NCBI GenBank assembly: GCA_027067575.1
Contig: JAMOVQ010000081.1
Span: 1-44,053, forward strand
Direction: 5' to 3'
DNA: 44,053 nt
Source of the DNA: Thermoanaerobaculia bacterium
Lineage (GTDB): Bacteria > Acidobacteriota > Thermoanaerobaculia > Thermoanaerobaculales > Sulfomarinibacteraceae
Position 1 is the stretch's first letter. Each line of letters opens with the position of its first letter. Positions 14,365 to 37,249 of the stretch are shown one piece after another. The translations under genes were made by a program, and so were the position numbers. The notes beneath the pieces are model-generated. The model had not been told where the DNA came from, did not search any database, and was given only the letters and a program-made list of their open reading frames with translations.

Positions 14365-14416
14365 ACATGGTGGCGTGATGATGATGGAGCACCGGGAACA
14401 CGACGGAGGGGACGAG

Positions 14417-16594
14417 ATGAACGGCCAGCAGCCGTACAGGGGGGACGTTCGCCCGGCACGGTGGCCGGAACGGGCGGGATCCGCTCATGACGACTGGACC
14501 TCTGTGGGACCCGCCGGATGCGAGGGCGAATCCATCGAGCCCGAGATCGACATCAGAGAGTACCTGAGGATCTTCTGGAGCGGCCGGTGGATCATCCTGG
14601 CCGTCACGGCGGCCGCCGTAGCGCTCGGCCTGGGCTGGGCGATGACACGCCCCAAGATCTACGAGGCGACCTGCACCATCTCGATCGACTCTCATCCCCC
14701 GCAGATCATCAAGAACCAAATCAACCTCTCACCGACATGGTGGGAGCTCGAACGGTACATCAACGAGCAGGAGCGTGTGATCCGCTCCCGCACGCTGGCC
14801 CAGCGTGTCGTCGAACGGCTGGGCCTCGAGAGCAACCCCGAGTTCCGGGACATCAGCGATCCCGCCGGGATGCTCCTGTCCCGGATCAAGGTGGAGCCGT
14901 TGAAGGCCGGGGATGTTTCCTCGAACGTGCTCGATATCTCGATCCGGGGCCGTGACCCCGAGCGGATCACCGAGTGGCTCAACGTGTACGTCCACGAGTA
15001 CATCGCCTTCAACATCGAGGACAACCTCAAGCGGATGCGGCAGATCTACGAGGTGATCCAGTCCAAGCTCGAACCGCTCAGGCAACAGCTCGGCGAGTCG
15101 GAACGTAAGCTCACCCGGTTCAAGGAACGGCAGGACTCCCTCTTTTTCGCCGATCAGGACAAGAACGTCATCACGGAGCAGGTCAGCACCCTGACGAGCG
15201 AGTACGCGAAGACCAAGACCGAGCGGATCCGCCTCGAGACCAAGATCAACGCCCTGAAGGCGATCCAGAAGAACGGCGGGTCGCTCTCGGCGTTTCCGGA
15301 GGTCGCGAACGACGCGACGATCCAGTCGCTCCAGGCGGAGCTCCGGAAGCTCGAGGTGGAGCTCGACGAGAAGCTCAAGACGTACAAGGGCGGGCACCCG
15401 ATCATCAAGGACCTGCGCGGCCGGATCGAAGGTATCCGGCGGCAGATCACCGACCAGATCGACCGGATCATCCAGCGTCTTCGAACGGATTACGAGATCA
15501 AGCGGCGGCGCGAGGCGTCGCTCTTCGCCAACATCCAGAAGCTCAAGCAGCAGTCGATCGAGCTTTCGAAGCAGACGATGGAGTACGAGAAGCTCAAGCG
15601 CGAGTACGAGCAAAACAAGGCGTTCTACGAGGATATGCTGGCGCGCTCGAAGGAGGCGGACATCTCCGGGACCGTCGCGATGAACAACATCCGGATCATC
15701 GATGAGGCGCGCAAGCCGGAAGCTCCCGTCTCTCCGAACGTTCCCCGGATCGTCATTCTCAGTCTGATGCTGGGGTTGATGCTGGGCGTCGGACTCGTGT
15801 TCGGCCTGGACTACCTCGACCAGTCGTTCCGGAACCCCGAGGCCATCGAACGGTACACCGGCCTCGAGGTGCTGGCCGTCGTTCCCGCCTACGATGACGA
15901 GCCGGGCGCCGCGATCCGGGAGGTCTACCAGAGCCTGAGGACGGCGCTGCTGTTTGCAGCCCGTGGCGAGGGTGCCCAGGTGCTCATGATCACCTCGGCG
16001 GGTCCGGGCGAGGGAAAGTCCACGACGTCGAGGCGGCTGGCCGAGACGTTCGCCGCGTCCGGGTCGAGGGTTCTCCTCGTGGACGCCGACATGAGGAAGC
16101 CCAGTGTCCACCGACTTCTCGAGGCGGACCGGAAGATCGGACTGACCTCGGTCGTCCTCGGGAAGGTCTCCCTGGAGGAGGCCGTGGTACCGGTTCCAGG
16201 GGCCGGACAGCTCCACGTCCTGCCTTCAGGCCCGCTCCCCCCAAACCCGCCGGAGATGTTCGGCAAGGAGAGCTTCCTCGCCCTGCTCCGCGAGGCCAGA
16301 TCCCGGTATGACTGGGTGATCCTGGATCTCCCGCCCGTGATCTCCGTGACCGACCCGGTGGTCTGCTCGCCGCTCGCCGACATGGTGCTTCTCGTCGTCC
16401 AGTACGGCCGTCTCGACCGCAAGGTGATCGTCGGCGCCCTCCGCCAGCTCGCGCGGGCCGGCGCACGGGTGGTCGGAGCCGTTCTGAACCGCGTCGATCT
16501 TGAACGTGAGCACTACTATGCGGATGGTTACTATGCGGGGTACTACCACTACGCCTCGGCGGCCGAGACGGATGCCGAGACCGGTGGTCGTTGA
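14417..16594 (+). CDS. Wzc-like polysaccharide co-polymerase with BY-kinase domain
   Basis: The 725-residue inner-membrane protein controls polymer length and export and phosphorylates itself on tyrosines. It has a Wzz domain with two membrane segments (about 57-76 and 455-478) and a long periplasmic coiled coil between them. The cytoplasmic kinase has Walker A GPGEGKST (529-536, K534), Walker A' VLLVDADMRKP (D556, D558) and Walker B ILDLPP (D637). The tail HYYADGYYAGYYHY holds seven tyrosines (700-712), the expected autophosphorylation cluster. The ATG at 14417 is preferred because GGAGGG lies 6 nt upstream; GTG and ATG codons at 14375-14384 would add a poorly conserved extension. No phosphatase partner is in the window. 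Confidence 0.93.
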   Translation: MNGQQPYRGDVRPARWPERAGSAHDDWTSVGPAGCEGESIEPEIDIREYLRIFWSGRWIILAVTAAAVALGLGWAMTRPKIYEATCTISIDSHPPQIIKNQINLSPTWWELERYINEQERVIRSRTLAQRVVERLGLESNPEFRDISDPAGMLLSRIKVEPLKAGDVSSNVLDISIRGRDPERITEWLNVYVHEYIAFNIEDNLKRMRQIYEVIQSKLEPLRQQLGESERKLTRFKERQDSLFFADQDKNVITEQVSTLTSEYAKTKTERIRLETKINALKAIQKNGGSLSAFPEVANDATIQSLQAELRKLEVELDEKLKTYKGGHPIIKDLRGRIEGIRRQITDQIDRIIQRLRTDYEIKRRREASLFANIQKLKQQSIELSKQTMEYEKLKREYEQNKAFYEDMLARSKEADISGTVAMNNIRIIDEARKPEAPVSPNVPRIVILSLMLGLMLGVGLVFGLDYLDQSFRNPEAIERYTGLEVLAVVPAYDDEPGAAIREVYQSLRTALLFAARGEGAQVLMITSAGPGEGKSTTSRRLAETFAASGSRVLLVDADMRKPSVHRLLEADRKIGLTSVVLGKVSLEEAVVPVPGAGQLHVLPSGPLPPNPPEMFGKESFLALLREARSRYDWVILDLPPVISVTDPVVCSPLADMVLLVVQYGRLDRKVIVGALRQLARAGARVVGAVLNRVDLEREHYYADGYYAGYYHYASAAETDAETGGR

Positions 16595-22580: not shown

Positions 22581-22600
22581 GGCCACCGCGAGTGGTGGCC
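22581..22600 (-). terminator. Terminator of tRNA-Gln (possibly also rlmN)
   Basis: A 7-bp perfect stem GGCCACC/GGTGGCC has a six-base loop. On the minus strand it is followed by CTTTCCATTTCTC, a T-rich tail, so it fits an intrinsic terminator for the tRNA. On the plus strand the tail is weaker but the same stem may also end rlmN. Confidence 0.7.
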
Positions 22601-22613
22601 GGTCGTTTCGTGG

Positions 22614-22687
22614 TGGCTGGGGCGCAGGGAGTCGAACCCCGATTCTACGGTCCAGAGCCGCATGTCCTGCCATTGGACGACGCCCCA
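22614..22687 (-). tRNA. tRNA-Gln (anticodon CTG)
   Basis: On the minus strand the acceptor stem pairs TGGGGCG (from 22687) with CGCCCCA, then discriminator G and an encoded CCA. The starting T is typical of glutamine tRNA. The anticodon loop CTCTGGA has CTG at 22655-22653, reading CAG. The D arm has GTCCAATGGCAGGAC and the T arm GGGGTTCGACTCCC. The length is 74 nt with CCA. Confidence 0.95.
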
Positions 22688-22714
22688 GCACGGGGTCCCC
22701 CGCAGGGGAGCGTC

Positions 22715-22742
22715 ATTATAGCAAGCGACCGCCGGCGGTCAA
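22715..22742 (-). promoter_or_regulatory. Promoter of tRNA-Gln
   Basis: On the minus strand TTGACC (22742-22737) and a perfect TATAAT (22720-22715) are 16 bp apart. Transcription would start about 20 nt before the tRNA. Confidence 0.85.
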
Positions 22743-23143: not shown

Positions 23144-23172
23144 TTGACACCGGGTTCTTCCAGAGGTATGAA
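23144..23172 (+). promoter_or_regulatory. Promoter of the secreted paralogue operon
   Basis: TTGACA (23144-23149) and TATGAA (23167-23172) are exactly 17 bp apart. The leader is about 27 nt with GGGAGG (23194-23199). No comparable promoter is seen inside the eight genes that follow, so this site probably drives all of them. Confidence 0.75.
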
Positions 23173-23205
23173 GGATGCAGAAGCATACAACCTGGGAGGC
23201 GTGGG

Positions 23206-24426
23206 ATGGCAAGGTCGATCCGAGTCGTTACCGCGGCGGTCTTCGCCGCCGTCCTCGTGGCATTGCCGGCGTGGCAGGGAGCCGCACAGACGTGGAAGGA
23301 CTTTCTGAAGAGCACGGCTGCGAACGCCGTGGACGGGCAGCTCGGCGGGGAAGCGGGCAGGATCCGCCGGGTCCGGGTGGTGGCCCGTCATCCTTCCGAG
23401 ATCACCGTCGAAGCTCGCCTGACCGACGTCACGGACCCGTCCTCGGTCCGGCTGGAGGCCGAGCTCCTCGACAACAAGGGCAACCCCATTGAACCGATCG
23501 TGGTGAAGCACGGTGCGATTCCGAAAGGAGAGGGCACGGTCGAGGCGACGGTGCGGTACACGGGAAGCGGCTCGGTCTACTCCTCGATCCTGCTGCTCAA
23601 GCTGGTCCACACCTCCAGCGGGAAGGTCTCCTCCCAGCGCAGCACGATGGTCGCAAAGAGCTGGGAGGGTCCCGGGGAGGGACCTGTTCTGGAGGATGCG
23701 TCAGACCGCCCATCACCCCCTCCGACGCCGGCGCCGAGGGTCGTCCGGCTGCACCCCGTACCGGTCGGCAACACGCCGAAGGGCGCGTCGGCCGTCGGGA
23801 TCGGGGGACTCCAGTTCCGCACGCCACCGGTCAGTCCTCCCGCCCGGACCGGCTCGCCGGCGCAGGTTCCGCCTCCACCCCGTCGGCCGCTGTCCCCCGG
23901 CGCCGTCCAGCTCGCGGCGGGGCGGAGAGCGACGCTCGTCGACCTCTACCGTGCCGCCTTCCACGGGAGCTGGCGAAACGCCACGACGGCGCTCCCGTTC
24001 AACGGCTCGGACGGAGACCGACGTGGTTTCGTCCGGGCGCTGGGAGCCCACGCGCTGATCGACGGCACGCGGCACGAGCGGGTGCTGGAGACCCACCCGG
24101 AGTGGAAGCCCCACGGGAAGATCGTTGGCGAGATCACCGTCCAGCTGCCAGAGAAGGCGCGGCACCTGGCGGGGACCGTCGGATTCCTTCCCGGCTCGAG
24201 AAGTCCCGACGGCGTCACCGCCGAGGTGTTCATGCGGGCGAAGGGGATGCCGGCAACCCGGCTCTGGGTCCGGCGGGTCCGGCCGGCCGATGGAGCCGTT
24301 CCGTTCAGCGTCACGATTCCTCGGGAGTTTGCCGGAAAGCGTGTCGTCGTTGAGCTCAGGGTTGACGCGGGCCCGTCCTCCCGGCAGGACTGGTTCGCTT
24401 GGAGCGATCTGCGGATCACCGACTGA
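23206..24426 (+). CDS. Secreted protein A of the paralogue operon (beta-sandwich-like)
   Basis: The 406-residue product has a signal peptide (cleavage near PAWQGAAQ, residue 28). Residues about 52-140 look like a beta-sandwich (ITVEARLTDVTDPSSVRLEAEL, then VYSSILLLKLVHTSSGKVSS). A Pro-rich linker (about 160-250) follows, and a C-terminal domain (about 262-406) with strands such as GKIVGEITVQL and RVVVELRVDAGP, ending QDWFAWSDLRITD. This layout recalls carbohydrate- or protein-binding modules, but I do not recognise a family. No lipobox or membrane anchor is present. It is the first gene after the promoter, 5 bp before the next gene. Confidence 0.75.
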   Translation: MARSIRVVTAAVFAAVLVALPAWQGAAQTWKDFLKSTAANAVDGQLGGEAGRIRRVRVVARHPSEITVEARLTDVTDPSSVRLEAELLDNKGNPIEPIVVKHGAIPKGEGTVEATVRYTGSGSVYSSILLLKLVHTSSGKVSSQRSTMVAKSWEGPGEGPVLEDASDRPSPPPTPAPRVVRLHPVPVGNTPKGASAVGIGGLQFRTPPVSPPARTGSPAQVPPPPRRPLSPGAVQLAAGRRATLVDLYRAAFHGSWRNATTALPFNGSDGDRRGFVRALGAHALIDGTRHERVLETHPEWKPHGKIVGEITVQLPEKARHLAGTVGFLPGSRSPDGVTAEVFMRAKGMPATRLWVRRVRPADGAVPFSVTIPREFAGKRVVVELRVDAGPSSRQDWFAWSDLRITD

Positions 24427-24431
24427 AGCCG

Positions 24432-25169
24432 ATGCGGCGGCCGTTCCTCTGTCTCCTCGTCGTGACGCTGGGTGCGGCGATCGCCTCCGCCGGACAGCCG
24501 GTGGCGGTCTCCGTTACGCCGGACACCGTCCGGCCGTACGAGAGCGTGGTGCTGCGTGTCGAGGGATCGGGTTTCGGACCCGGGTGCCGGGCGCTTCTCG
24601 GCCGTGCCGGGCGGTACGTCCCGGTGGCCACCACCGTGGAGGGAGGGACGGTGGTGGAGATCCGGCTCCCTGCCGGGCTGCCGCCGGTTCCGCGCGAACG
24701 CGCCGTCGTGGTGGAGTGCGGTTCGACCCGCACGGCTCCGCTGACCGTCACGGTGAACCGCTCCATGCCGGGCGGCGCGCAGCCTGTCCCGTCCCCCTCT
24801 CTCGCCGCGGCGGCGGGTGCCGCCTCGGCGGCGGAACCTGAGCCGGCCACTGCGGCGGTACCGGTTCTCGCCCGTCTCGACCCCTGGACCGTGCCCGCAG
24901 GGGAGCCGTTCACCCTGACGCTGACCGGGAGCCGGTTCGAGGAGGGCGCGTCCGTGGAGGTGACGGTGAACGTCAACGCGGGCACATCGCGCCCACCGGA
25001 GTACCGGCCGCGGCGGTTCCCCGCCGACCGGCTCTCCGACACCGTCTTGCTCGTCGACTTCGACCGCGGTTTCGCGCCGGAGCCCCCGCTCCGGCCGGTC
25101 CGTGTCGTGAACCGTTCCGGGGCGCAGAGTGCGCCCCTCTACCTTCGGATCTCCGGGAGGACACCATGA
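24432..25169 (+). CDS. Secreted protein B of the paralogue operon (two IPT/TIG-like domains)
   Basis: The 245-residue product has a signal peptide (ending AAIASAG, residue 22). Residues about 25-105 resemble an IPT/TIG immunoglobulin-like domain (VSVTPDTVRPYESVVLRVEG, then SGFGPGCRALLGRAGRYVPV). An Ala/Pro/Ser-rich linker (110-145) follows, then a second IPT-like domain (LARLDPWTVPAGEPFTLTLT, then GSRFEEGASVEVTVN). Such domains act as spacers or binding modules in surface proteins. The gene overlaps the next by 4 bases (ATGA). It is not a paralogue of the later genes but is clearly part of the operon. Confidence 0.75.
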   Translation: MRRPFLCLLVVTLGAAIASAGQPVAVSVTPDTVRPYESVVLRVEGSGFGPGCRALLGRAGRYVPVATTVEGGTVVEIRLPAGLPPVPRERAVVVECGSTRTAPLTVTVNRSMPGGAQPVPSPSLAAAAGAASAAEPEPATAAVPVLARLDPWTVPAGEPFTLTLTGSRFEEGASVEVTVNVNAGTSRPPEYRPRRFPADRLSDTVLLVDFDRGFAPEPPLRPVRVVNRSGAQSAPLYLRISGRTP

Positions 25170-26623
25170 GACGATCCACTGGCGCCGCGGCGTGCCTCGC
25201 CGTGTTGCTGTTCGCATACCCCGTCCGCGTGGCGCACGCCGCCCCGGGAACGGACCAGTTCGGAGCTCTCAAGCTGGCCGACCACGTCCATCTGATGCAG
25301 GTGCTGCCACAGCTTCAGACGGCGGACAGGCAGAGCGAGGAGTCGAGAAAACGGCAGGGGCGTGGCCCCGCCGCCGGGGCCATCGCCGTCGGCGACCTCG
25401 CCACGGTCCGCCAACTCGACCGGTTCCCCGGCGTCTCGCTGGAGCGGCTGTGCCGTCTCAGCCTGACGGTGTACCCCGACGTCAACGCGGACTCCGGGAT
25501 CTTCTACTACCGGCCCAGACGGTTCGTGCTGAAGTTCGAGCCGGAAGAGGGGTACTACCTCAACCTGGACTACAAGGCGAAGGGACGGGACGAACAGTCC
25601 GTGCTGATCCAGGCCCGGCTGACGCCCGGGTTCGCCCAAGTGGACAGGGTCGTGCTCAAGGCGCTCCTCATGTCCGCGCTCCACCGGCTCGGGCGCGAGG
25701 TGGCCGACCCGATCCTCCTGCCCCTGCCGGCCACCTACGAGGTCTCGTTCAACCTTCAGAACTGGGAGATCGAGAGCGTCACCGTCAACGGCGTGGATCC
25801 CGAGAGCGGTGAGATCGTGCTCAGCCTCGCGGCGTCGGTACCCGACGCGACGCTCGTGGCCAACACGCTGGGGAACCTCAACGGCCTGGTCGGGTCGGTG
25901 GAGTTGCGGCCCGCGCTGATCTCGCCGAGCCAGAGCCTGACGACGCCGATCCAGATCCCGGCCAGCATCCGCCTGGCGGACATCCGGAGCGCCCCGCCGC
26001 TGACACCGGCCGATATCGTCCCACGGTTCCGGAACCCCTGGCCGTTCGACCTTCGGCTCTCGTACCTCTGCTACCTGGCGGGGAACCCGGCTTCGGCACT
26101 GGAGGTCCGGGGATGGAGCCTCGGGGACGCGGTGCTCCACCCCGGGGACACGGCCGAGCTACCCGCGCACGCACTCAACGCGGAGCTCCGGAAGTCTCCG
26201 GCCGTTGTCGTGGCCGATCTGGACGCCTCCCGCGAGGCACTGGACGCCGTCGTCCAGCGGCTGACGGGCGGTGTGGGGTCGCTTCCCGTGGCCACGCTGA
26301 ACATCGAGGCCGTCGGGCGCGGGCTGTTCGAGCAGTACAACATCCACAAGATCATGGTGGAGGTCGAGTCCACGGCGTTCGATCCCGAAGGACGGACCGC
26401 GGAGAGCCACCTCTACGTGCTGACGGAGGACGAGCCGCGGGTGACCTCCGACCCGCTTTACCTGGCGGGTGAGCCGGGACCCGGCCTCTACCGGTACCGG
26501 GTCGGCATCATCACGCTCGACGGGCAGGGGCACCAGGACGCCGCCTGGCGGAAGCCCGGGGCGATGCTGTGGAACACCATCACCGTCGGCTCCAAGGTCG
26601 TGGAGGAGGTGCTGGGGCAGTGA
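25166..26623 (+). CDS. Secreted protein C, remote member of the YYLP paralogue family
   Basis: The 485-residue product has a signal peptide (ending VRVAHAAPG). An N-terminal extension of about 110 residues precedes IFYYRPRRFVLKFEPEEGYY (112-131), which matches the WYYLPDRPHLxVD block of the downstream paralogues in position and pattern. Its C-terminal part, IHKIMVEVESTAFDPEGR then DPLYLAGEPGPGLYRYRVGIITLDGQG, matches the C-terminal module of the large paralogues (VRHVTLDLHYDAAG then EYQYILRWRFRGG in protein H). The GGG-HFL block is missing. It starts in a 4-base overlap with the IPT-like gene and ends in a GTGA overlap with the next, so translation is coupled on both sides. Function unknown. 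Confidence 0.75.
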   Translation: MRRSTGAAACLAVLLFAYPVRVAHAAPGTDQFGALKLADHVHLMQVLPQLQTADRQSEESRKRQGRGPAAGAIAVGDLATVRQLDRFPGVSLERLCRLSLTVYPDVNADSGIFYYRPRRFVLKFEPEEGYYLNLDYKAKGRDEQSVLIQARLTPGFAQVDRVVLKALLMSALHRLGREVADPILLPLPATYEVSFNLQNWEIESVTVNGVDPESGEIVLSLAASVPDATLVANTLGNLNGLVGSVELRPALISPSQSLTTPIQIPASIRLADIRSAPPLTPADIVPRFRNPWPFDLRLSYLCYLAGNPASALEVRGWSLGDAVLHPGDTAELPAHALNAELRKSPAVVVADLDASREALDAVVQRLTGGVGSLPVATLNIEAVGRGLFEQYNIHKIMVEVESTAFDPEGRTAESHLYVLTEDEPRVTSDPLYLAGEPGPGLYRYRVGIITLDGQGHQDAAWRKPGAMLWNTITVGSKVVEEVLGQ

Positions 26624-27654
26624 AGCCCGCCGCCGCGCTCCTGGTGGTCCTCGCGACGTGGCCCGCCGGCGCCGGGCCGGTGCTCCAGGGGGCCCGCCAG
26701 ACGCCGGACGGCGCCTGTTACCCGGATCATGCCGATCCGACGCTCTGGTACCTGGCCCCCCCTCCGCCCGTCCTGACCGCGCCCTCGGGACGAAGCACGG
26801 TTGAGCTGACGCTGTTCGGGTACCACGGCAGCAGCACGACGGCCGACGAGACCGCGTTCGCCGCGGGCGGCGTGCTCCAGTTCCGCCTCCGGTTCCCCCA
26901 CGATCCTGGGCGGCTGACCCGGGCCGCCCGGGCGCTCGGCGGTGCGGTGCGCGTGGTCCCGATCACCCTGTCCCGGGTGGATGCGTTGGTGGTGTTCCCC
27001 GGAACCGCCGCCCGACCCGCCACGGAAACCGGCGGCTCGGACGAGGGCGAGGGTGGCGCATGGGAGGAGCGGGCGTTCTCGATCCGCCTGACGCCGGCGG
27101 ACCAGGCGCTGCTCCGGCGGGCGTGGGAGGCGGGTTCGACGACCCTCTCCGTCGACATCGCAGCGTACGCTGTGCTTCGCGTTCCGGAGGGCGACGGAAA
27201 CGGCAGGACCCGCCCCGGGGAGGTCCCCGTCCTGGCCGATGCCGTCCCGGTCGTCCTGTCCGCGGCGAGCCCGGCGGTCCGCTGGCTCGATCTCGAGGCC
27301 GCCATCGCGGCGGACTATGCGGGACTGGAGGTCGGGTGCGCGGAGATCGAAGCGGCCGGGGGGGCGAGCGACACCGCCGCCATCGTCGTCCGGATCCGGG
27401 CCCGCGCCGTCAACGGCGACACGCTGGAGAAGATCGTCACGTTCCGGAAGGGCTCCCCCCCGGTGCAGACGGTCCGGTTCGACTCGGCCGTCCGGCTCGA
27501 CGACGGGTACGACGTCTGGACCGGACGGCGGTCGACGACCGGGGAGCTGGAAAGCCTCTCGAGCGAGCGGATCCCCGTCTGGCAGGGGTTCCTCGATGTC
27601 TGCGCCAGGAAGGCGGGGACGGAGGACCGGCTCGACCCAAGGATGCTGTACTGA
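26620..27654 (+). CDS. Secreted protein D, short remote member of the family
   Basis: The 344-residue product starts at a GTG overlapping the previous stop (GTGA). A signal peptide (MKPAAALLVVLATWPAGAG) is followed by ADPTLWYLAPPPPVLTAPSG (39-58), a clear version of the DPxxWYYLPxxPxL block, then VELTLFGYHG in the place of the FSFVKYV strand. The C-terminal part (IVVRIRARAVNGDTLEKIVT, PVQTVRFDSAVRLDDGYDVW) looks beta-rich but cannot be aligned by eye with the large paralogues. It may be a shortened or fast-changing member. One cysteine near the front (GACYPDH) is not in a lipobox position. Confidence 0.7.
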   Translation: MKPAAALLVVLATWPAGAGPVLQGARQTPDGACYPDHADPTLWYLAPPPPVLTAPSGRSTVELTLFGYHGSSTTADETAFAAGGVLQFRLRFPHDPGRLTRAARALGGAVRVVPITLSRVDALVVFPGTAARPATETGGSDEGEGGAWEERAFSIRLTPADQALLRRAWEAGSTTLSVDIAAYAVLRVPEGDGNGRTRPGEVPVLADAVPVVLSAASPAVRWLDLEAAIAADYAGLEVGCAEIEAAGGASDTAAIVVRIRARAVNGDTLEKIVTFRKGSPPVQTVRFDSAVRLDDGYDVWTGRRSTTGELESLSSERIPVWQGFLDVCARKAGTEDRLDPRMLY

Positions 27655-27665
27655 GGAGGATGCCG

Positions 27666-29489
27666 ATGGATGTTCGACACCGTACCCGGGCCGTGGTCGC
27701 CTCTCTGGCCGTGCTGCTTCTCGCGTCGTCCGCGTGGTCTCTCGTCTGGTACGACAGGGGCCGGCTGACGATCGGCGGGATCCAGCTGTTCCAGGACACG
27801 GAGGACCCCACGGTCTACTACTACCTCCCCACGGTGCCCAGCCTGGCGTTCACACCGGACGGGCACCCGCAACTCCTCTGCCTGAAGTACGTGGACCCGG
27901 ACGGGAACGCTTCGGGAGGGATCCTCCACTTCCTCGCCGGGCTCGACTTGCCCCCGGAACGGGTCGAGGCGCTGGAGAAGGCACTGCGGAAGAAGGTGCC
28001 CGGCGCGAAGCTCGCCGGGCCGGTCAGACTGCTGGAGCCGAAGCGCACCGCGGGCAAGGGCGCATCGGGGTCGGGGAAGACGGCGTCGTTCCGGGTGGTG
28101 TCGGCGATCCTCGCCTCGGCCGGTGAAGAGGGCGGCCTGACCCGGACGCTGATCGCGTCGGGACACGCCCCGCTGACGCCGGGGAGCCGGGCCGCCGTGG
28201 CCGCGACCCTCGACCCGAAGGGCGCGACCCTGCTCTGGGGCTCGTTCTCCGGCCCCACCTCGGACGTCTCGGTGACCATCGAGGCCGAGTACGAGGCCCG
28301 GGTCCGGGGGTACAACGCCGTGGTCACCGCCGACGTCACCACGCTGTACGAGCACTTCTCGATGGAGATGAACCAGCAGGAGGGGTACACCAAGCGGGAG
28401 CTCCGCCGGATCGTCGACGAGCTGCGCCACGACAACGTGCTCAAGATCGAGGTGTTCGACCGGTCGAAGAGCCTCGGGCTCGACTCGACGGGGATCGAGG
28501 CGATCCTCGATCTCGTGACCGACAAGCTGACCGCCCTGATGTTCGACCAGAAGGCGGGGCTGGCGAAGATGCCCGAGAAGGAGAGGGCGATCGCCAAGGG
28601 GCAGGTCCGCGGCCGGAGGAAGGCCGGCGCGTTCATCGAGTTCTTCTCTGGCGAGAAGGACCCGAAGTACGTCACCGACGACCAGTTCGTGCTCAAGTCC
28701 CGCAGCGACCTCAAGCGGACCACGTTCTCCATCAACCTGGCCCACGACACGACGGTCCGGGTGCCGGTCTACCTGACCGGGAACATGCGCGGTCTCTACG
28801 ACCGGTACCGCGACGATCCGGAGGTCTTCCGCGTCGTCAACCTGGCCGATCCGGCGTTCGAGGTGCGGGAGATCCACTTCGTGCTGGACGGCGCCTGGGC
28901 CGCACGGTTCCAGGACCTGATCAACTGGGTCTCGGTCCAGGCCCGCAAGGTGTACGGTTCGGAGCGGCCCACCGTGGCCGGCCAGCTCCAGCTGACGCCG
29001 AAGGACGTGGCGGACGGCACCCTGGAGCGGGTGTTCCGGTACCCGAGGCTCGGGGAAACCGGCGAGGACTGGCTCGGGTACGGCTACCGCGTCACGTGGA
29101 GCTTCCGCGGCCACGGGGAGACGACCCTGCCCGCGGGTGGCGGCTGGGACGAGAGCACGGCGCCCGTGGTGACCCTGGAGCCTCCGCTGACGATCACCGA
29201 GGCCGAGGCCGAGGTGGACACGGCGGCCATGGCCGACCGCGGGGTCCGCCGGGCGGTGGTGCAGGTCCGTGCGACGCGGCTGGGCAAGGCTGCGACCCGC
29301 AGGGTGGCGGTGGTCTCTCCGGACAGTGCCGAGCCGGTCGTGGAGCTCGCAGTGGCGGCCGATCCCGGGCAGGAACCGCAGGTCCGGGCGATCTGGATCA
29401 TGGACGACGGCTCCCGCGCCACCGGGCCGTGGACGGGGCTGGGCGAGGGGTACGTCTGGCTCCAGCCGCCACAACCCCCGGAGCCGTGA
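27666..29489 (+). CDS. Secreted protein E, YYLP paralogue (607 aa)
   Basis: The 607-residue product has a signal peptide (about 1-25). The N-terminal module has DPTVYYYLPTVPSLAF (48-62), GGILHFL (84-90), GAKLAGPV (113-120) and ASGHAPL (164-170). A helical middle part (about 235-350, for example KRELRRIVDELRHDNVLKIE) follows. The C-terminal module has GNMRGLYDRYRDDPEVFRVV (372-391), DPAFEVREI (395-403), YRVTWSFRG (474-482) and VTLEPPL (502-508). The ATG at 27666 is chosen because GAGGAGG (27653-27659) lies 6 nt upstream; an ATG at 27660 would touch it. The blocks are shared in the same order with proteins F, G and H. Function unknown. Confidence 0.8.
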   Translation: MDVRHRTRAVVASLAVLLLASSAWSLVWYDRGRLTIGGIQLFQDTEDPTVYYYLPTVPSLAFTPDGHPQLLCLKYVDPDGNASGGILHFLAGLDLPPERVEALEKALRKKVPGAKLAGPVRLLEPKRTAGKGASGSGKTASFRVVSAILASAGEEGGLTRTLIASGHAPLTPGSRAAVAATLDPKGATLLWGSFSGPTSDVSVTIEAEYEARVRGYNAVVTADVTTLYEHFSMEMNQQEGYTKRELRRIVDELRHDNVLKIEVFDRSKSLGLDSTGIEAILDLVTDKLTALMFDQKAGLAKMPEKERAIAKGQVRGRRKAGAFIEFFSGEKDPKYVTDDQFVLKSRSDLKRTTFSINLAHDTTVRVPVYLTGNMRGLYDRYRDDPEVFRVVNLADPAFEVREIHFVLDGAWAARFQDLINWVSVQARKVYGSERPTVAGQLQLTPKDVADGTLERVFRYPRLGETGEDWLGYGYRVTWSFRGHGETTLPAGGGWDESTAPVVTLEPPLTITEAEAEVDTAAMADRGVRRAVVQVRATRLGKAATRRVAVVSPDSAEPVVELAVAADPGQEPQVRAIWIMDDGSRATGPWTGLGEGYVWLQPPQPPEP

Positions 29490-29499
29490 GGAGGCCGTG

Positions 29500-31266
29500 A
29501 TGCGTGAACGAGCCCTCGCCGCTCTGGCCATCCTGGCGATGACCGCCGGAATCCTCCCGGCCCAGGAGGTGCTCCTGGATGGCTCGATCCGCGTTGGGGG
29601 GCTCACCCTGTTCGCCTCCCGGACCGACCCCGGCGTCTGGTACTACCTCCCGGACCGCCCGCACCTCGCGGTGGACTCCGCGGGCCGGCCCGAGTTCTCC
29701 TTCGTCAAGTACGTCTTACCCGGCCGCACGAACGGTGGCGGGAGCCAGGGAATCACCAGGGCCTCCGGCGGCGGTGTCGTCCACCTCCTGGCGAGCTACG
29801 AGGTACCGCCGGAGGCGGTGGAGAACGCCGAGGCCGAGTTGCGGGCGCTGGAAGGCCACGAGGAGGACCGGATCGCGGGCCCGATCCTGTACCGGGACGG
29901 GACGTTCGAGCTCGTCTCGGCCGTGACATCGCCCGACGGCGCCATGACGAGACGGGTGCTCGGCACCGGTAAGGCCCCGTTGATCGAGGGGGAGCGGGCA
30001 GCGATCTCTCTCGATCTGACACCCGAGGGGGCATCCTTCCTCTGGCAAACCCTTGACATGGAGCACCCCGACCTGACCCTCGTCTTCTCCATGCGGATGG
30101 CGGGCTACCGGACGCCGTACGAGGCGGAGCTCGTGGTGGACTGGGACCGGCTCTACCACCACCAGGCGATCAAGGCGGGGGTGAAGATCTACTGGGTGGG
30201 AATCGACGTGGACGCCCTCGTCGAGTCGCTCCTGACCGACGGCACGATCCAGGTGACGGTCAAGGGCGAGAGCGCACCGATGGAGAGTCTGCTCCAGTCC
30301 GCCTACGACCGGGTCACGCGGATCCTGTTCGAGGAGGTGCCGCCGGGCGAGGAGTCCCCGCCGGGCGAAGCTTCCTCCGGCGAGACCCTGGGGAGGCTCA
30401 TCGACGCCGCGCGCTCGGTGAGCGACCGGTGCAAGAACATCGACCTGACGGCCCGGTACCGCCTCCGCCACGTCCGCCGGTCCGGAAAGACCCGGCTGAC
30501 CCTCCGCCAGCAGAGCGAGGCGTCGCTGTTCGTCCTGCTCAGCGCCGACATCGGCCCCGTGGCCGCGCGGTACCGGGGCGATCCGGCGTTCTTCAAGGCG
30601 GTCAACCTGGAGGACCCGACGTTCCGGCAGCGGGAGGTCAGCGTCACGTACGACGGCGACGCCGAGGCGTTCGCCGAGGCGTTGAACCACGTGGTGGTGC
30701 AACTGAGGAAGCGTCACGGCGACGGCAGCGTCACCCTGCGCGAGGCGCTGCTCCGGCCGGGACGGCTGACGGGTGAGCACGGCCCCCTCGTGTTCACCTA
30801 CCCCAACGCCGGCGACGACGACCCCGTGGCGTGGCTGGATTACGAGTGGCGTGCGATCTGGAGTTTCCGCCAGGGGTTCGACCACGACACGGGCTGGCAG
30901 GAGTCGAACGCCTTCGCCATTGCCCTCAGCCCTCCGTTCCTGGTCCGGAGGCTCGCCCTCGATGGGGACCGAAGCGTGCTCGAAGGCGCGCACGTCCGCG
31001 CGGTGACGGCCGAGATCGTGTGGGATCTGCTCGGCCACACCGAACGCCGCCTGGTCACGGTCCGGCCGTCCCAGATCCCCCGAACGGTCCCCGTCCTGCT
31101 CTCCCGGGAGGACCCGACGGTCCGGGTCACGCTCCGCTGGCACCTTGCTGGCGGGCGGAGGATCGAGACCGGGCCGCGAAAGGAACGCTCCGACATCGTC
31201 TTCATCGACGAGATCCCCGAAACGGCCGCCCCCGGGACGGGGGTGCCGGACCATGGAGGTACCTGA
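29500..31266 (+). CDS. Secreted protein F, YYLP paralogue (588 aa)
   Basis: The 588-residue product has a signal peptide (MRERALAALAILAMTAGILPAQ). It carries the clearest form of the family blocks: WYYLPDRPHLAVDSAGRPEF (47-66), GGGVVHLL (90-97), GTGKAPL (155-161), VVDWDRLY (212-219), DPTFRQREV (372-380), QLRKRH (401-406) and DEIPET at 570-575. The ending DEIPET also closes protein H exactly, so that C-terminus is a conserved feature. It starts 10 bp after gene E with a GAGGAGG-type site and its stop overlaps the next start by one base. There is no enzyme motif that I can identify. Confidence 0.8.
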   Translation: MRERALAALAILAMTAGILPAQEVLLDGSIRVGGLTLFASRTDPGVWYYLPDRPHLAVDSAGRPEFSFVKYVLPGRTNGGGSQGITRASGGGVVHLLASYEVPPEAVENAEAELRALEGHEEDRIAGPILYRDGTFELVSAVTSPDGAMTRRVLGTGKAPLIEGERAAISLDLTPEGASFLWQTLDMEHPDLTLVFSMRMAGYRTPYEAELVVDWDRLYHHQAIKAGVKIYWVGIDVDALVESLLTDGTIQVTVKGESAPMESLLQSAYDRVTRILFEEVPPGEESPPGEASSGETLGRLIDAARSVSDRCKNIDLTARYRLRHVRRSGKTRLTLRQQSEASLFVLLSADIGPVAARYRGDPAFFKAVNLEDPTFRQREVSVTYDGDAEAFAEALNHVVVQLRKRHGDGSVTLREALLRPGRLTGEHGPLVFTYPNAGDDDPVAWLDYEWRAIWSFRQGFDHDTGWQESNAFAIALSPPFLVRRLALDGDRSVLEGAHVRAVTAEIVWDLLGHTERRLVTVRPSQIPRTVPVLLSREDPTVRVTLRWHLAGGRRIETGPRKERSDIVFIDEIPETAAPGTGVPDHGGT

Positions 31267-33368
31267 TGCGATCGTACCGAACCGTTCTGCCGCTCGCTCT
31301 TCTTCTCGCCATCGCCATGGCGGTTCCCGCCGCCGCGAAGCTCCTGTACGAGGAGACGCTGACCATCGTCCTGGACGACGGAACCCCCGTCATCCTCGTC
31401 CTCGACGACCAGGGCCTCACGCGCCCACACGAGAGAACGGCTGCCGAACGGGCGATGCAAGCCGCGAAATGGCAGTTCCAGCAGAGGGTAGCCGCCCACA
31501 AGGCGTGGCGGTACGGCATTCCGCCCCAGGTCAACGCGCCCTCGAACCTCTCGGGCGCCCAGGCGGCGGCCGTCCGGGGGGAAGAAGCTGCCGTCGCGCC
31601 CTACCGGTCGAAGCTCGCCGCTCTGGCCGACCATACGAAGGGGAAGACCCTCTGGAACCTGGTGGGACGAAACGGCCAGCCGTTCTCGGCGGTGAAGAAG
31701 CGCTACTACTACCTCCCCCCACCGCCGCGTGTCGCGGTGGACGCCCAGGGCCGGCCCCAGTTCCTGTTCCTCAAGTTCACCTCGGACCGTGACGTGGCCC
31801 ACGGCGGGGTCAAGGGGGGCATCATCCACTTCCTCTGCGAGTACGGCCTGACGCCAGCGCAGGAGGCCGAGCTGCGCGAGAAGCTCTCTGAGCGCGTTCG
31901 CAACGCCGAGCTCGCAGGCGCCGTCCGGATGGAGGATGCCGCCGAGGAGTCCTCGTTCAAGGTGTTGTCCGCCGTCCTGTCCGACGAGGGCCTGACGGAA
32001 CACGTGGTGGCCTCGGGCAAGGCCCCGCTCCTGCCGGGCCAGAAGGTGGCCGTCGCGGCCCGTCTGACCCCCGAGGCGGCCGTGATCCTCGAGGAGGCGC
32101 TGCAACGGCCCACCTCCGACTTCACCGTGGAGTTCGACCTGGCGTACACGGCGTTCCTCCCCGCCTTCGAGGGCAAGATCGTCTTCGACTGGCAGCGGTT
32201 CAAATCCCACATCGACGACTGGAAGATCAGGTACCGGGACAAGAAGAGCTGCAAGTGGTGGATCTTCGGGTGCGACCACACCTACACCGAGGACGAGATG
32301 CGGGAGCTGTACGACTTCCTGTGCGAGAACCAGGTGGTCCGGATCGAATGGACCGAGGGAATCGTGGACGAACGGCTCGAGGCGATCCGCCAGGCGTTCT
32401 TCCGGTTCATGGAGACCTCGTTCTTCGACCAGGTCGCACCGATGGACAGCAAGGACGAGAATCCCGAGGAAGCGATGGGAACACCCGAGAAGAAGGGGAA
32501 ACGCTCCCTGTCCACACGGTTCATCGCCAAGTCCGAGGAGGCGTTCAAGACCAAGACGATCTCCATGCGGGCGACGCTGCCCGTCAAGGTCCCGTACCGG
32601 GTGGTCGGCAACATCTCGGGCTCCTGGTACCGGAGCGCCCGGGAGCAGTACCCGGAGCTGTTTGCCGAGGTCAACGTGGACGACCCGTTCTTCCAGCAGC
32701 GTCCGGTGGTCTTCACCCTCGACCTCGACGCCATGGAGATCTTCGATCAGGCGATCAACTTCGTCACCGTGGAGGTCCGCAAGCGGCGCCCGCGCGGACG
32801 GGATTTCCACACCTCGTTCACCCTGACCAAGGACGAGGTGGCCAAGAACGGCCCGTCCAAGACGATCACCTACGCCAAGATGCGGGACGACTCGCCGGAG
32901 GTGTTCGAGTACCTCGTCCGCTGGAGCCTGCGCGGCGGGATCGAGTGGCCCGCCAACCCGGCGTGGAAGCGGGGCTCCTGGGAGGGCGTCACCCTCTCGC
33001 CCCCGGTCCGCCCGCTGACCGTCGAGGCCGAGGCCGACCTCGAGGAGCTCCAGGAGCTCGGGATCCGCCGGGCCACGGTGGAGGTCCGGTACCGGCAGTT
33101 CGGCAAGGACGTCAGGGACAGGCGGTCGATCCACCTCTCCCCGGCGAAGGGTGAGCCGATCGGATCGATCGTCGTCTTCCTGGACCGCGACCACCCCGAC
33201 TGGAAATACCGCGTCACCTTCTACCACGAGCGGTTGGGCCGTCTGGCCGGCCCATGGAAGAAGGGCGGCGCCGACGGGTACATCTTCTGCACCGTCCCGG
33301 ACACCGTCCGTGCCAAGCTCCTCGCCCGGGACCGGGTCGAGGAGGCGGTGGAGAAGCTGGTCGAATGA
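31266..33368 (+). CDS. Secreted protein G, YYLP paralogue with N-terminal extension (700 aa)
   Basis: The 700-residue product has a signal peptide (ending AVPAAAK). An extra region of about 120 residues, mostly helical and charged, precedes RYYYLPPPPRVAVDAQG (146-162). GGIIHFL (184-190), ASGKAPL (249-255), FDWQRF (307-312), DPFFQQRPV (473-481), EVRKRRPRG (503-511) and VTLSPPVRPL (575-584) follow in the family order. A unique insert SCKWWIFGCDHTYTEDEM (328-345) has two cysteines that could form a disulfide outside the cytoplasm. The ATG overlaps the stop of F by one base and has GGAGG at 31255-31260. Function unknown. Confidence 0.8.
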   Translation: MRSYRTVLPLALLLAIAMAVPAAAKLLYEETLTIVLDDGTPVILVLDDQGLTRPHERTAAERAMQAAKWQFQQRVAAHKAWRYGIPPQVNAPSNLSGAQAAAVRGEEAAVAPYRSKLAALADHTKGKTLWNLVGRNGQPFSAVKKRYYYLPPPPRVAVDAQGRPQFLFLKFTSDRDVAHGGVKGGIIHFLCEYGLTPAQEAELREKLSERVRNAELAGAVRMEDAAEESSFKVLSAVLSDEGLTEHVVASGKAPLLPGQKVAVAARLTPEAAVILEEALQRPTSDFTVEFDLAYTAFLPAFEGKIVFDWQRFKSHIDDWKIRYRDKKSCKWWIFGCDHTYTEDEMRELYDFLCENQVVRIEWTEGIVDERLEAIRQAFFRFMETSFFDQVAPMDSKDENPEEAMGTPEKKGKRSLSTRFIAKSEEAFKTKTISMRATLPVKVPYRVVGNISGSWYRSAREQYPELFAEVNVDDPFFQQRPVVFTLDLDAMEIFDQAINFVTVEVRKRRPRGRDFHTSFTLTKDEVAKNGPSKTITYAKMRDDSPEVFEYLVRWSLRGGIEWPANPAWKRGSWEGVTLSPPVRPLTVEAEADLEELQELGIRRATVEVRYRQFGKDVRDRRSIHLSPAKGEPIGSIVVFLDRDHPDWKYRVTFYHERLGRLAGPWKKGGADGYIFCTVPDTVRAKLLARDRVEEAVEKLVE

Positions 33369-33396
33369 CGACCAGGACGAAAACTGGAGGTGTCCC

Positions 33397-35931
33397 ATGA
33401 AACGGCCGAACGTCACGCCTATTCTCGCGGTCCTCGTCCTGTTGATCGTGCCCCTTTCCGGGATGACCCAGGAAATCCTCTTCGACAGGGGTGTCCAGGC
33501 CGCAGGACTCAAGTGTTTCCCGATTCGGGGCGACGAACACAGCTGGTACTACCTCCCCGACAGGCCCCACGTCGTCGTCGACGGGGAGACGGGGCTACCC
33601 ACGTTCTCCTTCCTGATGTACGTGGCACCGGAGCAGACCGAAAGTGAAGGAATCACCCATGCGCCGGGGGGAGGCATCCTCCACTTCCTGGTCGCCTACG
33701 ACGTCCCCGAGGAGACCGTCAAGGACGCCCAGCGGGAGCTCGCCCGACTCAAGCCCGGCGCGAAGCTCCTGGGACCGGTCAGCTACGAGGACGGGGTCTT
33801 TGCCCTGAGGACGGCAATGAAGGACAAGCAGGCCGGGTTCATCCGCACCATCGTCGGGGTCGGCGGAGCACCCGTGATGTCCGGGCACAAAGCGGCCGCA
33901 TCGATGCACCTGACCCAGCGCGGCGCCGCGCTCGCGTGGCAAGAGTTCCACCAGACAAACCCCGAGATCTCCATGGCGTTCGAGATGACCCTGTCCGGGT
34001 ACTACAACCCCGTCGAGGCCACCATGACCATCGACTGGGACAAGGTCAACCAGGTCATCCAGGCAGGTGCAGCCGGCCGCGTGTCGTTCCTCGCTTTCGA
34101 GGCCGATGCCCTGATCCAGAACATGCTGAACAACGGCGCCATCACCATCGAGCTCGTCGGGGCTCCACCCGAGCTCTGGAACAAGGTCCAGAAGATGGGC
34201 CTCGAGCTCGCAAGGAACATGCTCTTCCAGAAGAGCGGCGTCGCCTCGTTGCAGGAGCTGGGTAGCCTCGGCATGTCTGGCCCCACGCTGCGGGACTCCG
34301 ATTCGGCGTTCGGCCGGGACCGCCGGAACAGCAGCCTCGTCCCGTGGAGTACACCGTGGGGATTCCCGTGGGCAGCCGGAGGAACCCCTCCGCACGGTCT
34401 TCGCCGGGAGGCGTGTTGGCGTGCACCGGCAGTCTCCCTGTCGGAGCAATCGTCCGTTGCAGATGCCGTTTCAGCCGGCCGCAGCCAGTGCTCCCAGGCG
34501 GAACGGCGTGCGGCACGGGATCTGTTCTTCCAAGGCGTCCAGGCCTACCGGGACGGCAACTTCTCCGAGGCGCGGAGACTGTGGCGGGAAGGGGTCGCCC
34601 TCTGTGATGTCTCCTCCTTCCACTGGAACCTCGCCGTGGTGGCCCTCGCCCTCGACGATCACGACTCGGCGACCTACCGGAGGGAGATCCTGAACTGGGC
34701 CTCCTTCATCCGCCCCGAGGCAGAGTCGCCCTCGCTCACCCGGGCCATCAACGAGGTCCGGAGCCTCCCGGACAACGTCCGGCCACCAGAGGACTTGCAA
34801 CGGCGGCTCACCGAACAGAAGGAACGGCTTCCGAGAGCCGCCTTCACCAGCTACCTGGCCTCCAGCACCGTAGGGCAGAGCCCAGAGATGGAGGCCAGTC
34901 CCACCCCAGAACCCACTCGCCCCCCCATACCGACACCCGGCGTGACGCCGCCCACTCAAAGGACACCCGGCAGCCGGCCCCGGACATCCCCTCATCCGAC
35001 AGGAACCCCTGCCGCGGTCCAGACAAGGAGCCGGACGCCCCAGGGACATCCTGCAAGGACACCAGCATCCCGATCCCCCACGCCCTCACGACGGTCCACG
35101 GCCACCGGGAGACGGACAGGGAGCAATAATCGGAGCGCCTCGGGGATCCTCGTACGCTTCCGCCTTCGCCGGTTCCGCAGCACGGGAACCACGGTCCTCA
35201 GCCTCAAACAGTGGCGCCGTGTGCGCCGGATCGTCCGGTTCAGCGGCGACCTCGGCGACCTGACCGGATATCTGGACAACCCGAAGCTGTTCCGCCGCGT
35301 CAACATCGACGACCCGATGTTCAAGCAGCGGGAGATCCCCGTCACGGTGGACGTGGCCAGCGACGAGGTGTTTGGCGCCATGCTGAACTCCGTCACCGTC
35401 ACCCTCCGGAAGCGGCATCAGGGCGGACGGGAGACACTCGACGAGGTGACGATCCGGCGCGCCGACATCGCCGAGGGAAAGGTGCCGAAGCTCCTCTACG
35501 GTTGGGACCAGGACGCGAACCGCACCCGCTGGCTCCAGTACGACTACCGGGTCCGTTGGGCCTACGTCGGCGGGCCTGAGATCGACACGGACTGGCAGAC
35601 CACCTCGGCGGGCGCCCTGGTGCTCCAGCCGCCGCTCCGCCCGAGGACGCTCCTTCTCGAGGCCGACACGGAGGTCCTCCGGGAAGCCGGCGTCCGCCAC
35701 GTCACCCTCGACCTCCACTACGACGCCGCGGGGATTGAGCGGCGGGCCACCGCGACCCTCAAGCCGAGCCAGCTGGAGGGGGAGAAGCAGCTTATCATGT
35801 ATCAGGATCCCCAGCACCCCGAGTACCAGTACATCCTGAGATGGAGGTTCCGGGGTGGCCGGACCGTGACCAGCGAGCCGGCCCGGAGCATCGAGGACAT
35901 CCTGTACCTGGACGAGATACCGGAAACGTGA
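33397..35931 (+). CDS. Secreted protein H, YYLP paralogue with TPR-like and Pro/Ser/Thr-rich insert (844 aa)
   Basis: The 844-residue product has a signal peptide (about 1-25). The N-terminal module has WYYLPDRPHVVVDG (50-63), GGGILHFL (91-98), GVGGAPV (154-160) and TIDWDKV (211-217). An insert of about 290 residues (296-583) follows that the paralogues lack. It contains a TPR-like pair of helices (AARDLFFQGVQAYRDGNFSE, from 372) and then a Pro/Ser/Thr/Arg-rich stretch (about 500-578) of the kind used as a cell-wall or surface spacer. The C-terminal module resumes with DPMFKQREI (639-647), TLRKRHQGG (669-677) and DEIPET at the very end. It is the last gene before the terminator hairpin. Function unknown. 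Confidence 0.8.
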   Translation: MKRPNVTPILAVLVLLIVPLSGMTQEILFDRGVQAAGLKCFPIRGDEHSWYYLPDRPHVVVDGETGLPTFSFLMYVAPEQTESEGITHAPGGGILHFLVAYDVPEETVKDAQRELARLKPGAKLLGPVSYEDGVFALRTAMKDKQAGFIRTIVGVGGAPVMSGHKAAASMHLTQRGAALAWQEFHQTNPEISMAFEMTLSGYYNPVEATMTIDWDKVNQVIQAGAAGRVSFLAFEADALIQNMLNNGAITIELVGAPPELWNKVQKMGLELARNMLFQKSGVASLQELGSLGMSGPTLRDSDSAFGRDRRNSSLVPWSTPWGFPWAAGGTPPHGLRREACWRAPAVSLSEQSSVADAVSAGRSQCSQAERRAARDLFFQGVQAYRDGNFSEARRLWREGVALCDVSSFHWNLAVVALALDDHDSATYRREILNWASFIRPEAESPSLTRAINEVRSLPDNVRPPEDLQRRLTEQKERLPRAAFTSYLASSTVGQSPEMEASPTPEPTRPPIPTPGVTPPTQRTPGSRPRTSPHPTGTPAAVQTRSRTPQGHPARTPASRSPTPSRRSTATGRRTGSNNRSASGILVRFRLRRFRSTGTTVLSLKQWRRVRRIVRFSGDLGDLTGYLDNPKLFRRVNIDDPMFKQREIPVTVDVASDEVFGAMLNSVTVTLRKRHQGGRETLDEVTIRRADIAEGKVPKLLYGWDQDANRTRWLQYDYRVRWAYVGGPEIDTDWQTTSAGALVLQPPLRPRTLLLEADTEVLREAGVRHVTLDLHYDAAGIERRATATLKPSQLEGEKQLIMYQDPQHPEYQYILRWRFRGGRTVTSEPARSIEDILYLDEIPET

Positions 35932-35936
35932 ACGAA

Positions 35937-35974
35937 CCCGCGGCCGGGGGGAGGACTCGCCTCCCGGCCGCGGG
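35937..35974 (+). terminator. Terminator hairpin of the secreted paralogue operon
   Basis: A 16-bp GC-rich stem (35937-35954 with 35960-35974, three bulged G residues) begins 5 bp after the last stop codon. It is followed by TTCCCCCC and not a T run. Its place marks the end of the operon. Confidence 0.65.
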
Positions 35975-36408
35975 TTCCCCCCGGACACCACCTGCCGTGA
36001 AGGCGAGAAGTGGCTGGCCTGAAGGTAGGGGAGAAGCTTCATGGCCTGCCCTCTGAAACCCCTGCCAGCATGCACCTCGCAGCACGAAGCCCTCCACGAT
36101 CGGGACTGTCCGTATGATGGGTGAAGCGTTGAGGTTGGCCCTACGTACTGTCTGCTGGCCGGCGGGCGGGAGCCAGCCGCTGGTTTGGCCCACGGCGAGG
36201 TGGTTTGGCACCGGCCGGGGCCGGACTTGCCGGAAGGGATCGCCGGGTCGGTTGCCTCCGGTTTCCTCGTCGCGATGACAGCCGGACGATCTCATCCCCG
36301 AGATGTCGCCTCAGGTAGGCCATGCGGATCATGAAGATGGCGTGATATCGTCACGTCAATACCGGTTTCGCCAATCGCACTCAAGGCACCGAGACCTTGC
36401 TCCCGCCA
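35975..36408. other. Intergenic stretch without a recognisable gene
   Basis: No convincing reading frame, RNA or promoter is seen. Base composition is more mixed than in the coding regions, and scattered short inverted pairs such as GAAGCTTC near 36035 are present. It may hold decayed sequence. Confidence 0.4.
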
Positions 36409-36481: not shown

Positions 36482-37249
36482 TCAGGCGAACTCCGCCAGG
36501 GTGCGTTCCATGTCCCGGCGGCCGATGGCGATCGCCCGGCGGACCCGGTCCCACTCCATGGTCCACCGCCGCATGGAGAGCGGTTCGGATGGGGTGATGG
36601 TGATGATCCGCTCCGGCCGGCCGCGGGCCACGGCGAGCTCGGCCTCGAGCTCGCGCCGTCCGTTGGGCGAGCACACCGCCACCCAGATCTCGTCCACCTC
36701 GCCGGGCGCGATGGTGGCCAGCGGGACCCTGCCGGTCACCCCTCCGTCGAGGTACCGGTCCTCCCCGATCCGGATCGCCGAGCGGAACCCGTTGATCCAC
36801 GGCACGAACGCGGTGGCCCGGAGGTGGAGTCCCAGCGCCTCCGGCGAGCCGATCGCCCGTGAGGAGACGACGGTCCGCTCCAGCCGCGGCAGCGGGAACC
36901 CCGGCCCTGTGATCCGGGAGAGCACCAGCCGGACCTCCTCCCGGGCCGCGAGCACGGCGTCGAGGTCCATGATCTGGAGCGTGATCGTCCGGATCAGATG
37001 GTCCACCGTGCGCCATCGCCCGCGCTCGAGCCACGGGTGGAGCGCCACACGCCACCGGTCCGCCTCGCGCCAGGAGCGCTCCAGGGCGTCGGGGTCGCCC
37101 GCGGCGAACCAGGCGGCGGCGATCCCGCCCGCCGAGACGCCGGCCAGGATGTCGAACCGGACCCCGGCCTCCTGGAGCGGGCGCATGAACCCGGCGTAGT
37201 ACGCGCCGCGGTTCGCTCCCGAGGCCATCAGGAGGGCACGGCGTGTCAC
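36482..37249 (-). CDS. Patatin-like phospholipase family protein
   Basis: The 255-residue cytoplasmic serine hydrolase has GANRGAYYAGFMRPLQEAG (residues 11-29) as oxyanion loop, the nucleophile in GVSAGG (near residue 39) and the catalytic aspartate in YLDGGVTG (near 168). It is shorter than the patatin-like protein at 6574 and not closely related to it. The start is a GTG at 37249 with a weak ribosome binding site, 52 bp after the SDR gene on the same strand, so the two may be co-transcribed. The substrate is unknown; lipid acyl esters are likely. Confidence 0.88.
   Translation of the reverse strand: MTRRALLMASGANRGAYYAGFMRPLQEAGVRFDILAGVSAGGIAAAWFAAGDPDALERSWREADRWRVALHPWLERGRWRTVDHLIRTITLQIMDLDAVLAAREEVRLVLSRITGPGFPLPRLERTVVSSRAIGSPEALGLHLRATAFVPWINGFRSAIRIGEDRYLDGGVTGRVPLATIAPGEVDEIWVAVCSPNGRRELEAELAVARGRPERIITITPSEPLSMRRWTMEWDRVRRAIAIGRRDMERTLAEFA

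Follow-up and report, generated by a model that had tools for sequence, protein, structure and literature searches.

The window analyzed here is a stretch of 44,053 nucleotides (contig JAMOVQ010000081.1) from a metagenome-assembled genome of an Acidobacteriota bacterium (3.08 Mb, 191 contigs). It carries a cassette of eight genes, named A to H, packed on the + strand within positions 23206-35931 (Table 1). The reading favored here, with a probability of about 0.42, is that these genes encode one Sec-exported, non-enzymatic, heteromeric complex with a division of labor among its subunits. The intergenic gaps range from -4 to 28 bases (5, -4, -4, 5, 7-10, -1, and 28 from A to H, with an alternative ATG start of gene F at 29500), in agreement with the original prediction for this DNA, which had described eight tightly packed genes with gaps of 28 bp or less and some overlaps. 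This layout gives good support to a single predicted operon. The promoter proposed for it is confirmed in both hexamers (TTGACA at 23144 and TATGAA at 23167) and in the 17-nt spacer between them, but its -10 element is weak, matching the consensus at 4 of 6 positions, and the site is missing from the list returned by a consensus scan. The closing hairpin is indeed a strong one (66 nt, -44.1 kcal/mol, z -4.2, with 0 of 200 shuffles as strong), although it has no T-run and is therefore not a canonical intrinsic terminator. A signal peptide without lipobox had been predicted for every product, and a hydrophobic N-terminal leader is present in all eight and a lipobox in none; no second clear membrane span was found in A to H, with D having one borderline window of 17 residues.

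Table 1. Coordinates of the features of the A to H cassette in the window.
Feature	Position	Strand	Description	Basis
Promoter-like site	23144..23172	+	TTGACA-17-TATGAA	Read directly; 33 bp ahead of gene A
Gene A	23206..24426	+	406 aa; leader, N-terminal region, Pro-rich linker, C-terminal NPCBM/NEW2-like domain of ~165 residues	Orthologues; weak PF08305 match
Gene B	24432..25169	+	245 aa; leader and two CoaZ/TIG-type repeats	NCBIfam NF058597
Gene C	25166..26623	+	485 aa; divergent YLP-family member, FYYRP motif	Pooled C-family profile against N-domain profile; Lacihabitans orthologue
Gene D	26620..27654	+	344 aa; short divergent YLP-family member, WYLAP motif	Profile-profile comparison and N-domain profile search
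Gene E	27660..29489	+	609 aa; YLP domain and C-terminal beta-sandwich region	Alignment; Bacteroidota orthologue
Gene F	29497..31266	+	589 aa (GTG start); YLP domain 22-284, beta-sandwich region 320-575	AlphaFold model; orthologues
Gene G	31266..33368	+	700 aa; N-terminal extension of ~120 residues, YLP domain, beta-sandwich region	Orthologues; two-phylum clade
Gene H	33397..35931	+	844 aa; TPR-type and Pro/Ser/Thr-rich insert between YLP domain and beta-sandwich region	Alignment
Insert of H	34245..35110	+	TPR-like, then low-complexity linker, between YLP domain and C-terminal region	Gap against E, F, and G in alignment
Hairpin	35934..35977	+	GC-rich, directly 3' of H, no T-run	Folding energy against shuffles

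Judged from sequence comparison, the paralogy of E, F, G, and H exceeds chance by far, with E-values of 2.6e-56 for F against H, 6.6e-48 for F against E, and 1e-23 for F against G. Their alignment reveals a shared N-terminal domain of about 260 residues (the N-domain), marked by the blocks YYYLP, G-x-P, GG-x-x-H, and G-x-AP and named the YLP domain after the first of these motifs; the blocks of the C-terminal part are DP-F-QRE, RK, and PP. Membership of the YLP family was defined by a match to the N-domain profile together with YxLP, GxP, and GG blocks in this order, a combination found directly in E, F, G, and H. Protein D matches the N-domain in a profile-profile comparison (probability 99%, E 2e-18) and is retrieved by the N-domain profile search at E 6e-10. 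Window-type C is on its own too divergent to reveal kinship with the N-domain profile; the pooled C family, which includes window-type, fused, and Lacihabitans forms, matches it with a probability of 92.5% and an E-value of 5e-7. By these profile comparisons, the YLP family accounts for six of the eight cassette genes (C, D, E, F, G, and H). The kinship and motif order of E to H thus stand as originally described, but the family had been undercounted, as C and D are also members, and several of the motif positions given were shifted by 1-4 residues (those of E, for example, lie at 53, 86, 168, and 397). Across the wider YLP domain, the conserved positions are chiefly aromatic residues, glycine, and proline, with no catalytic set of polar residues among them.

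Searches of Pfam, NCBIfam, and PHROGs returned no match above cut-off for C, D, E, F, G, or either half of H, and no relative of the paralogues was found among PDB sequences. These library scans agree with the earlier statement that A to H hold no enzyme motif, ATPase, or transporter. No described system emerged from Pfam, NCBIfam, PHROGs, PDB sequence, and PADLOC searches, as had been claimed, and no placement of E to H in a characterized family, the outcome that the prediction itself had named as contrary to it, was found in Pfam, NCBIfam, PHROGs, or the PDB. PADLOC gave no anti-phage defense match for A to H or for two cousins, and a defense-system identity was rejected for A to H. A phage origin was likewise rejected: no phage record matches F, two divergent members have no relative in IMG/VR, and PHROGs gives A to H weak partial matches only, with no convincing tail protein. 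Neither a sheath, tube, baseplate, or AAA+ match of a contractile injection system or tailocin (PHROGs, Pfam) nor an enzyme or inhibitor domain of a polymorphic toxin system (Pfam, NCBIfam) was found in A to H of the window. Profile libraries, structures, and a brief search of the open-licence literature in PubMed Central (PMC) yielded no description of the YLP family or of the A to H set. In the sources searched, known kinds of domain were thus recognized for A and B but not for the YLP family, and no counterpart of the cassette was found. The label of an unrecognized family therefore holds for the YLP proteins but not for A, which is NPCBM-like (below threshold), or for B, which is recognizably of CoaZ/TIG type.

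Gene B matches CoaZ_rpt_PGGG (NCBIfam NF058597) with an E-value of 2e-12, scoring 47 bits where the cut-off is 30, and its orthologue from Acidobacteria RBG_13_68_16 matches TIG (PF01833) above cut-off; unlike the known proteins with CoaZ and IPT/TIG repeats, B is a short secreted protein in a fixed cassette. The C-terminal domain of A resembles NPCBM/NEW2 (PF08305) by a weak profile match, but A lies below the curated cut-off, also for the full-length match, and has no sequence match to solved members. Orthologues of A stand in cassette order in three genomes, and in other Acidobacteriota A is fused to a C-type protein, which ties A to the paralogues. These two genes are among the reasons to consider that the cassette encodes a glycan-binding or adhesive surface assembly of immunoglobulin (Ig)-like proteins, either matrix or adhesin, comparable to an exopolysaccharide- or substrate-binding layer. 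The C-terminal halves of the paralogues match adhesin and Ig-type folds in Foldseek, and the C protein of Lacihabitans contains three DUF7452 stretches. Such an assembly is nevertheless unlikely, given that the NPCBM match is below threshold, the Ig-like folds are generic, and none of the eight proteins has a lipoprotein or membrane anchor.

An AlphaFold model of F, built from 26 sequences, reached a mean predicted local distance difference test score (pLDDT) of 79 and a predicted template modeling score (pTM) of 0.48; for the isolated N-domain these values were 78 and 0.61. The C-terminal half of F is modeled as an Ig-like beta sandwich, and the N-domain as alternating long strands and helices. 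Against the PDB, Foldseek gave only generic Ig-like matches for the F model (template modeling score, TM, about 0.1) and, for the N-domain model, no match at E 0.001, which suggests that the YLP domain may be a new fold. Its alternation of strands and helices, together with the presence of RseB among the weak Foldseek matches (E 0.02), would be compatible with a carrier of lipids or other hydrophobic ligands across the periplasm, with the YLP domain resembling TULIP, LolA, or RseB. This is very improbable: the RseB match has a probability of 0.08 and a TM of 0.08-0.09, against about 0.5 for a shared fold (on a model of moderate confidence), no match in the Foldseek list reaches E 0.001, and the cassette has no lipid-transport partner. 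The original caution that a filament, a pore, or a lipid carrier all lacked support still applies, as no pore or lipid-carrier match in Foldseek survived scrutiny. Separately, the Medusavirus protein A0A7S7YF07 (BFVD) matches the F model with a probability of 1.0, a TMq of 0.19, and 14% identity, and is a possible giant-virus relative of the YLP domain, to be taken as a lead only.

The search for the same gene order in other genomes, proposed together with the original prediction, recovered the full A to H set, with its order unchanged, in three further Acidobacteriota: Holophagae FeB_10, Acidobacteria RBG_13_68_16, and Ww181. Gene H is duplicated in the cassettes of FeB_10 and Ww181. The full cassettes occupy different genomic sites, and by blastp none of the flanking genes of the window is found beside the other three, which defines A to H as the unit. 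The window genome has no further copy of the cassette. Among 60 relatives, F was matched in five, namely the window genome itself, the three with full cassettes, and one with a weak match; the orthologues of F are 49-52% identical and those of G 57-62%. A reduced cassette, consisting of an A-C fusion, an F-like gene, D, one or two H-like genes with a tetratricopeptide repeat (TPR) insert, and another F-like gene, was found in five genomes of other Acidobacteriota families, the fifth (G777) being divided between two short contigs. In Bacteroidota, Lacihabitans and a Leadbetterella metagenome-assembled genome hold F, G, and two H-type genes, and Lacihabitans also has E, C, and D; the E orthologue of this phylum matches at E 1.7e-170. 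A match in genome G446 (L112) was discarded as an apparently spurious hit within a transporter. Just 3' of two cassettes lie related genes absent from the window (L054:17859-18959 and L055:17546-19651, TPR-containing in the case of L055). The first H copy of FeB_10 (L054:12065-14510) is split across two reading frames within the insert, either through an assembly error or because the copy is broken.

A maximum-likelihood tree built from 36 proteins groups Acidobacteriota with Bacteroidota members in both the E and the G clade (support 100/100 and 100/99), which marks E and G as ancient, separately kept subunits; the proteins of the reduced cassettes form a clade of their own with three sub-clades. 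The deeper joins are unsure because the program flags long branches. A heteromeric complex accounts for such distinct, long-kept subunits more readily than recent tandem duplication does.

The insert of H lies at a joint that is reused in the H orthologues and in the reduced cassettes, with a TPR insert at the same joint in one or two paralogues per Acidobacteriota cassette and a length of about 760 residues in locus L024. Its TPR match is under the Pfam cut-off in the window and over it in the H proteins of RBG_13_68_16 and Ww181. A frameshift was rejected as the cause of the whole insert, since third-position GC resumes the same frame and this joint holds inserts in the orthologues as well.

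Searching with a broadened profile of the N-domain additionally retrieves cousins without leaders, which begin directly with the YLP domain and are arranged in arrays, with at least seven copies in an Acidobacteriota genome and four to five on a Pararhizobium plasmid; such arrays are present in Bacteroidota as well. The earlier claim of export therefore holds for the eight proteins of the window but does not define the family, which has leaderless members beside hydrolases. Hydrolases identified by Pfam lie on the same strand in the runs of several arrays: a pair of caspase-like C14 peptidases (L067), an N-acetylmuramidase that has a peptidoglycan-binding domain (L069), an enzyme of glycoside hydrolase family 46 (GH46; L068), and two S8 subtilases (L052/L113). 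In the run of L110, a papain-type C1 protease is followed by an I42 inhibitor of the chagasin family, with a muramidase lying farther along. This raw co-occurrence is suggestive of an association. The L110 locus (L110:6061-13952) is compact, with the protease, the inhibitor, a leaderless YLP protein, a partner of about 717 residues, and the N-acetylmuramidase, and looks like enzyme and inhibitor genes around a YLP protein. A partner of about 710 residues beside the YLP genes of L068, L069, and L110 was considered as a C homologue and was not confirmed by profile comparison. In L067:4789-18800, where the array runs into the two Peptidase_C14 genes, one member has a weak Tail_P2_I match. The array on the Pararhizobium plasmid p2 (L058:1-14457) encodes large hypothetical proteins in which YLP domains occur together with repeated segments of Ig-like type, and about 6 kb downstream of its array is found an ABC transporter with a lipocalin-like protein.

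These neighbors raise the most interesting rival explanation, in which the cassette would be an antagonism or predation complex, that is, an exported carrier of toxins or lytic enzymes with its cargo encoded elsewhere, and the cousins would have their cargo next door, sometimes with an inhibitor. Verified hydrolases occur in the runs of five leaderless arrays, once with the gene of the chagasin-family inhibitor lying between those of the papain-type protease and the YLP protein; the type of enzyme differs between loci, as would be the case for interchangeable cargo, and the spread is patchy, over three phyla and differing genomic sites. On the other hand, neither the window cassette nor its three full orthologues contain an enzyme, an immunity gene, or a variable C terminus, and no secretion-system, phage-tail, or polymorphic-toxin domain is matched. 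Two further neighbors, papain-like in Pararhizobium (L058:10192-11958) and permuted NlpC-like in Lacihabitans (L057:10510-11208), are cysteine peptidases by eye only and have no match in library searches. Among known systems, the leaderless cousins resemble polymorphic toxin and effector-immunity loci (PMC3482391) in their variable hydrolases (papain, muramidase, GH46, caspase-like, subtilase) and, once, a matching protease inhibitor. However, YLP proteins have no shared trafficking domain or fused toxin and come as several large paralogues rather than one carrier, and toxin and immunity genes are absent from the cassette of the window. With extracellular contractile injection systems (PMC8213781) the cassette shares a multi-gene operon, environmental hosts, a patchy spread, and a putative multi-protein particle, but A to H lack sheath, tube, baseplate, spike, and AAA+ genes and use Sec leaders. 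Taken together, the antagonism explanation is rather doubtful for the window.

In the favored reading of one non-enzymatic exported complex, the YLP domain of C, D, E, F, G, and H would most likely be the assembly module, and the Ig-like C-terminal regions of E to H would lengthen the scaffold. The TPR/linker arm of H, at the joint of its two halves, could bind partners, and the NPCBM-like protein A and the TIG/CoaZ-like protein B might anchor the complex to glycans or the cell surface. The exported version of the window would reside outside the cell or on its outer surface. The cytoplasmic cousins suggest that the general job of the family could be that of a scaffold holding or presenting proteins, often hydrolases. 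A scaffold is favored because the conserved YLP positions hold no residues for an active site, and the fixed gene set and exported leaders make it likely, as originally claimed, that the products work together outside the cytoplasm. Several points weigh against this reading. The cassettes nearest to that of the window carry no hydrolase, and hence the carrier idea rests on distant cousins. The PF08305 match among A members is 0.0043 at best and occurs in two of seven, below the Pfam cut-off, and the C-terminal domain of A has no match in a PDB profile search. The models of F and of the N-domain are of moderate confidence only (pTM 0.48 and 0.61). The distribution is rare as well, with 6 of 297 and 7 of 347 sampled Acidobacteriota and 4-8 of 396 Bacteroidota, which fits an accessory function without identifying which. 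Large exported proteins that belong to no annotated family, form a fixed set, and have been kept as distinct subunits in two phyla point to a complex overlooked entirely by annotation pipelines.

A broader and only tentative proposal is that YLP proteins constitute an undescribed scaffold superfamily working in two compartments, with leaderless multi-subunit arrays carrying interchangeable hydrolases, at least once with an inhibitor gene, and a Sec-exported heteromer, the form found in the window, that was turned into a glycan-associated extracellular machine. If true, this would be a new enzyme-presenting or enzyme-delivering particle, unrelated to phage tails. The homology to leaderless arrays near proteases, an inhibitor, and wall-cutting enzymes offers a testable carrier or scaffold proposal for environmental bacteria.

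Around the cassette, the window also includes a tRNA-Gln gene (22614-22687, - strand) directly before it, accompanied by a promoter close to consensus and by a hairpin resembling a terminator (22581-22742), a site that is a possible insertion hot spot. Two further neighborhoods were identified by reading: a Wza-like polysaccharide export gene with a Wzc-like gene at 13474-16594, and, just beyond the cassette on the - strand, a gene for a patatin-like phospholipase at 36482-37249.

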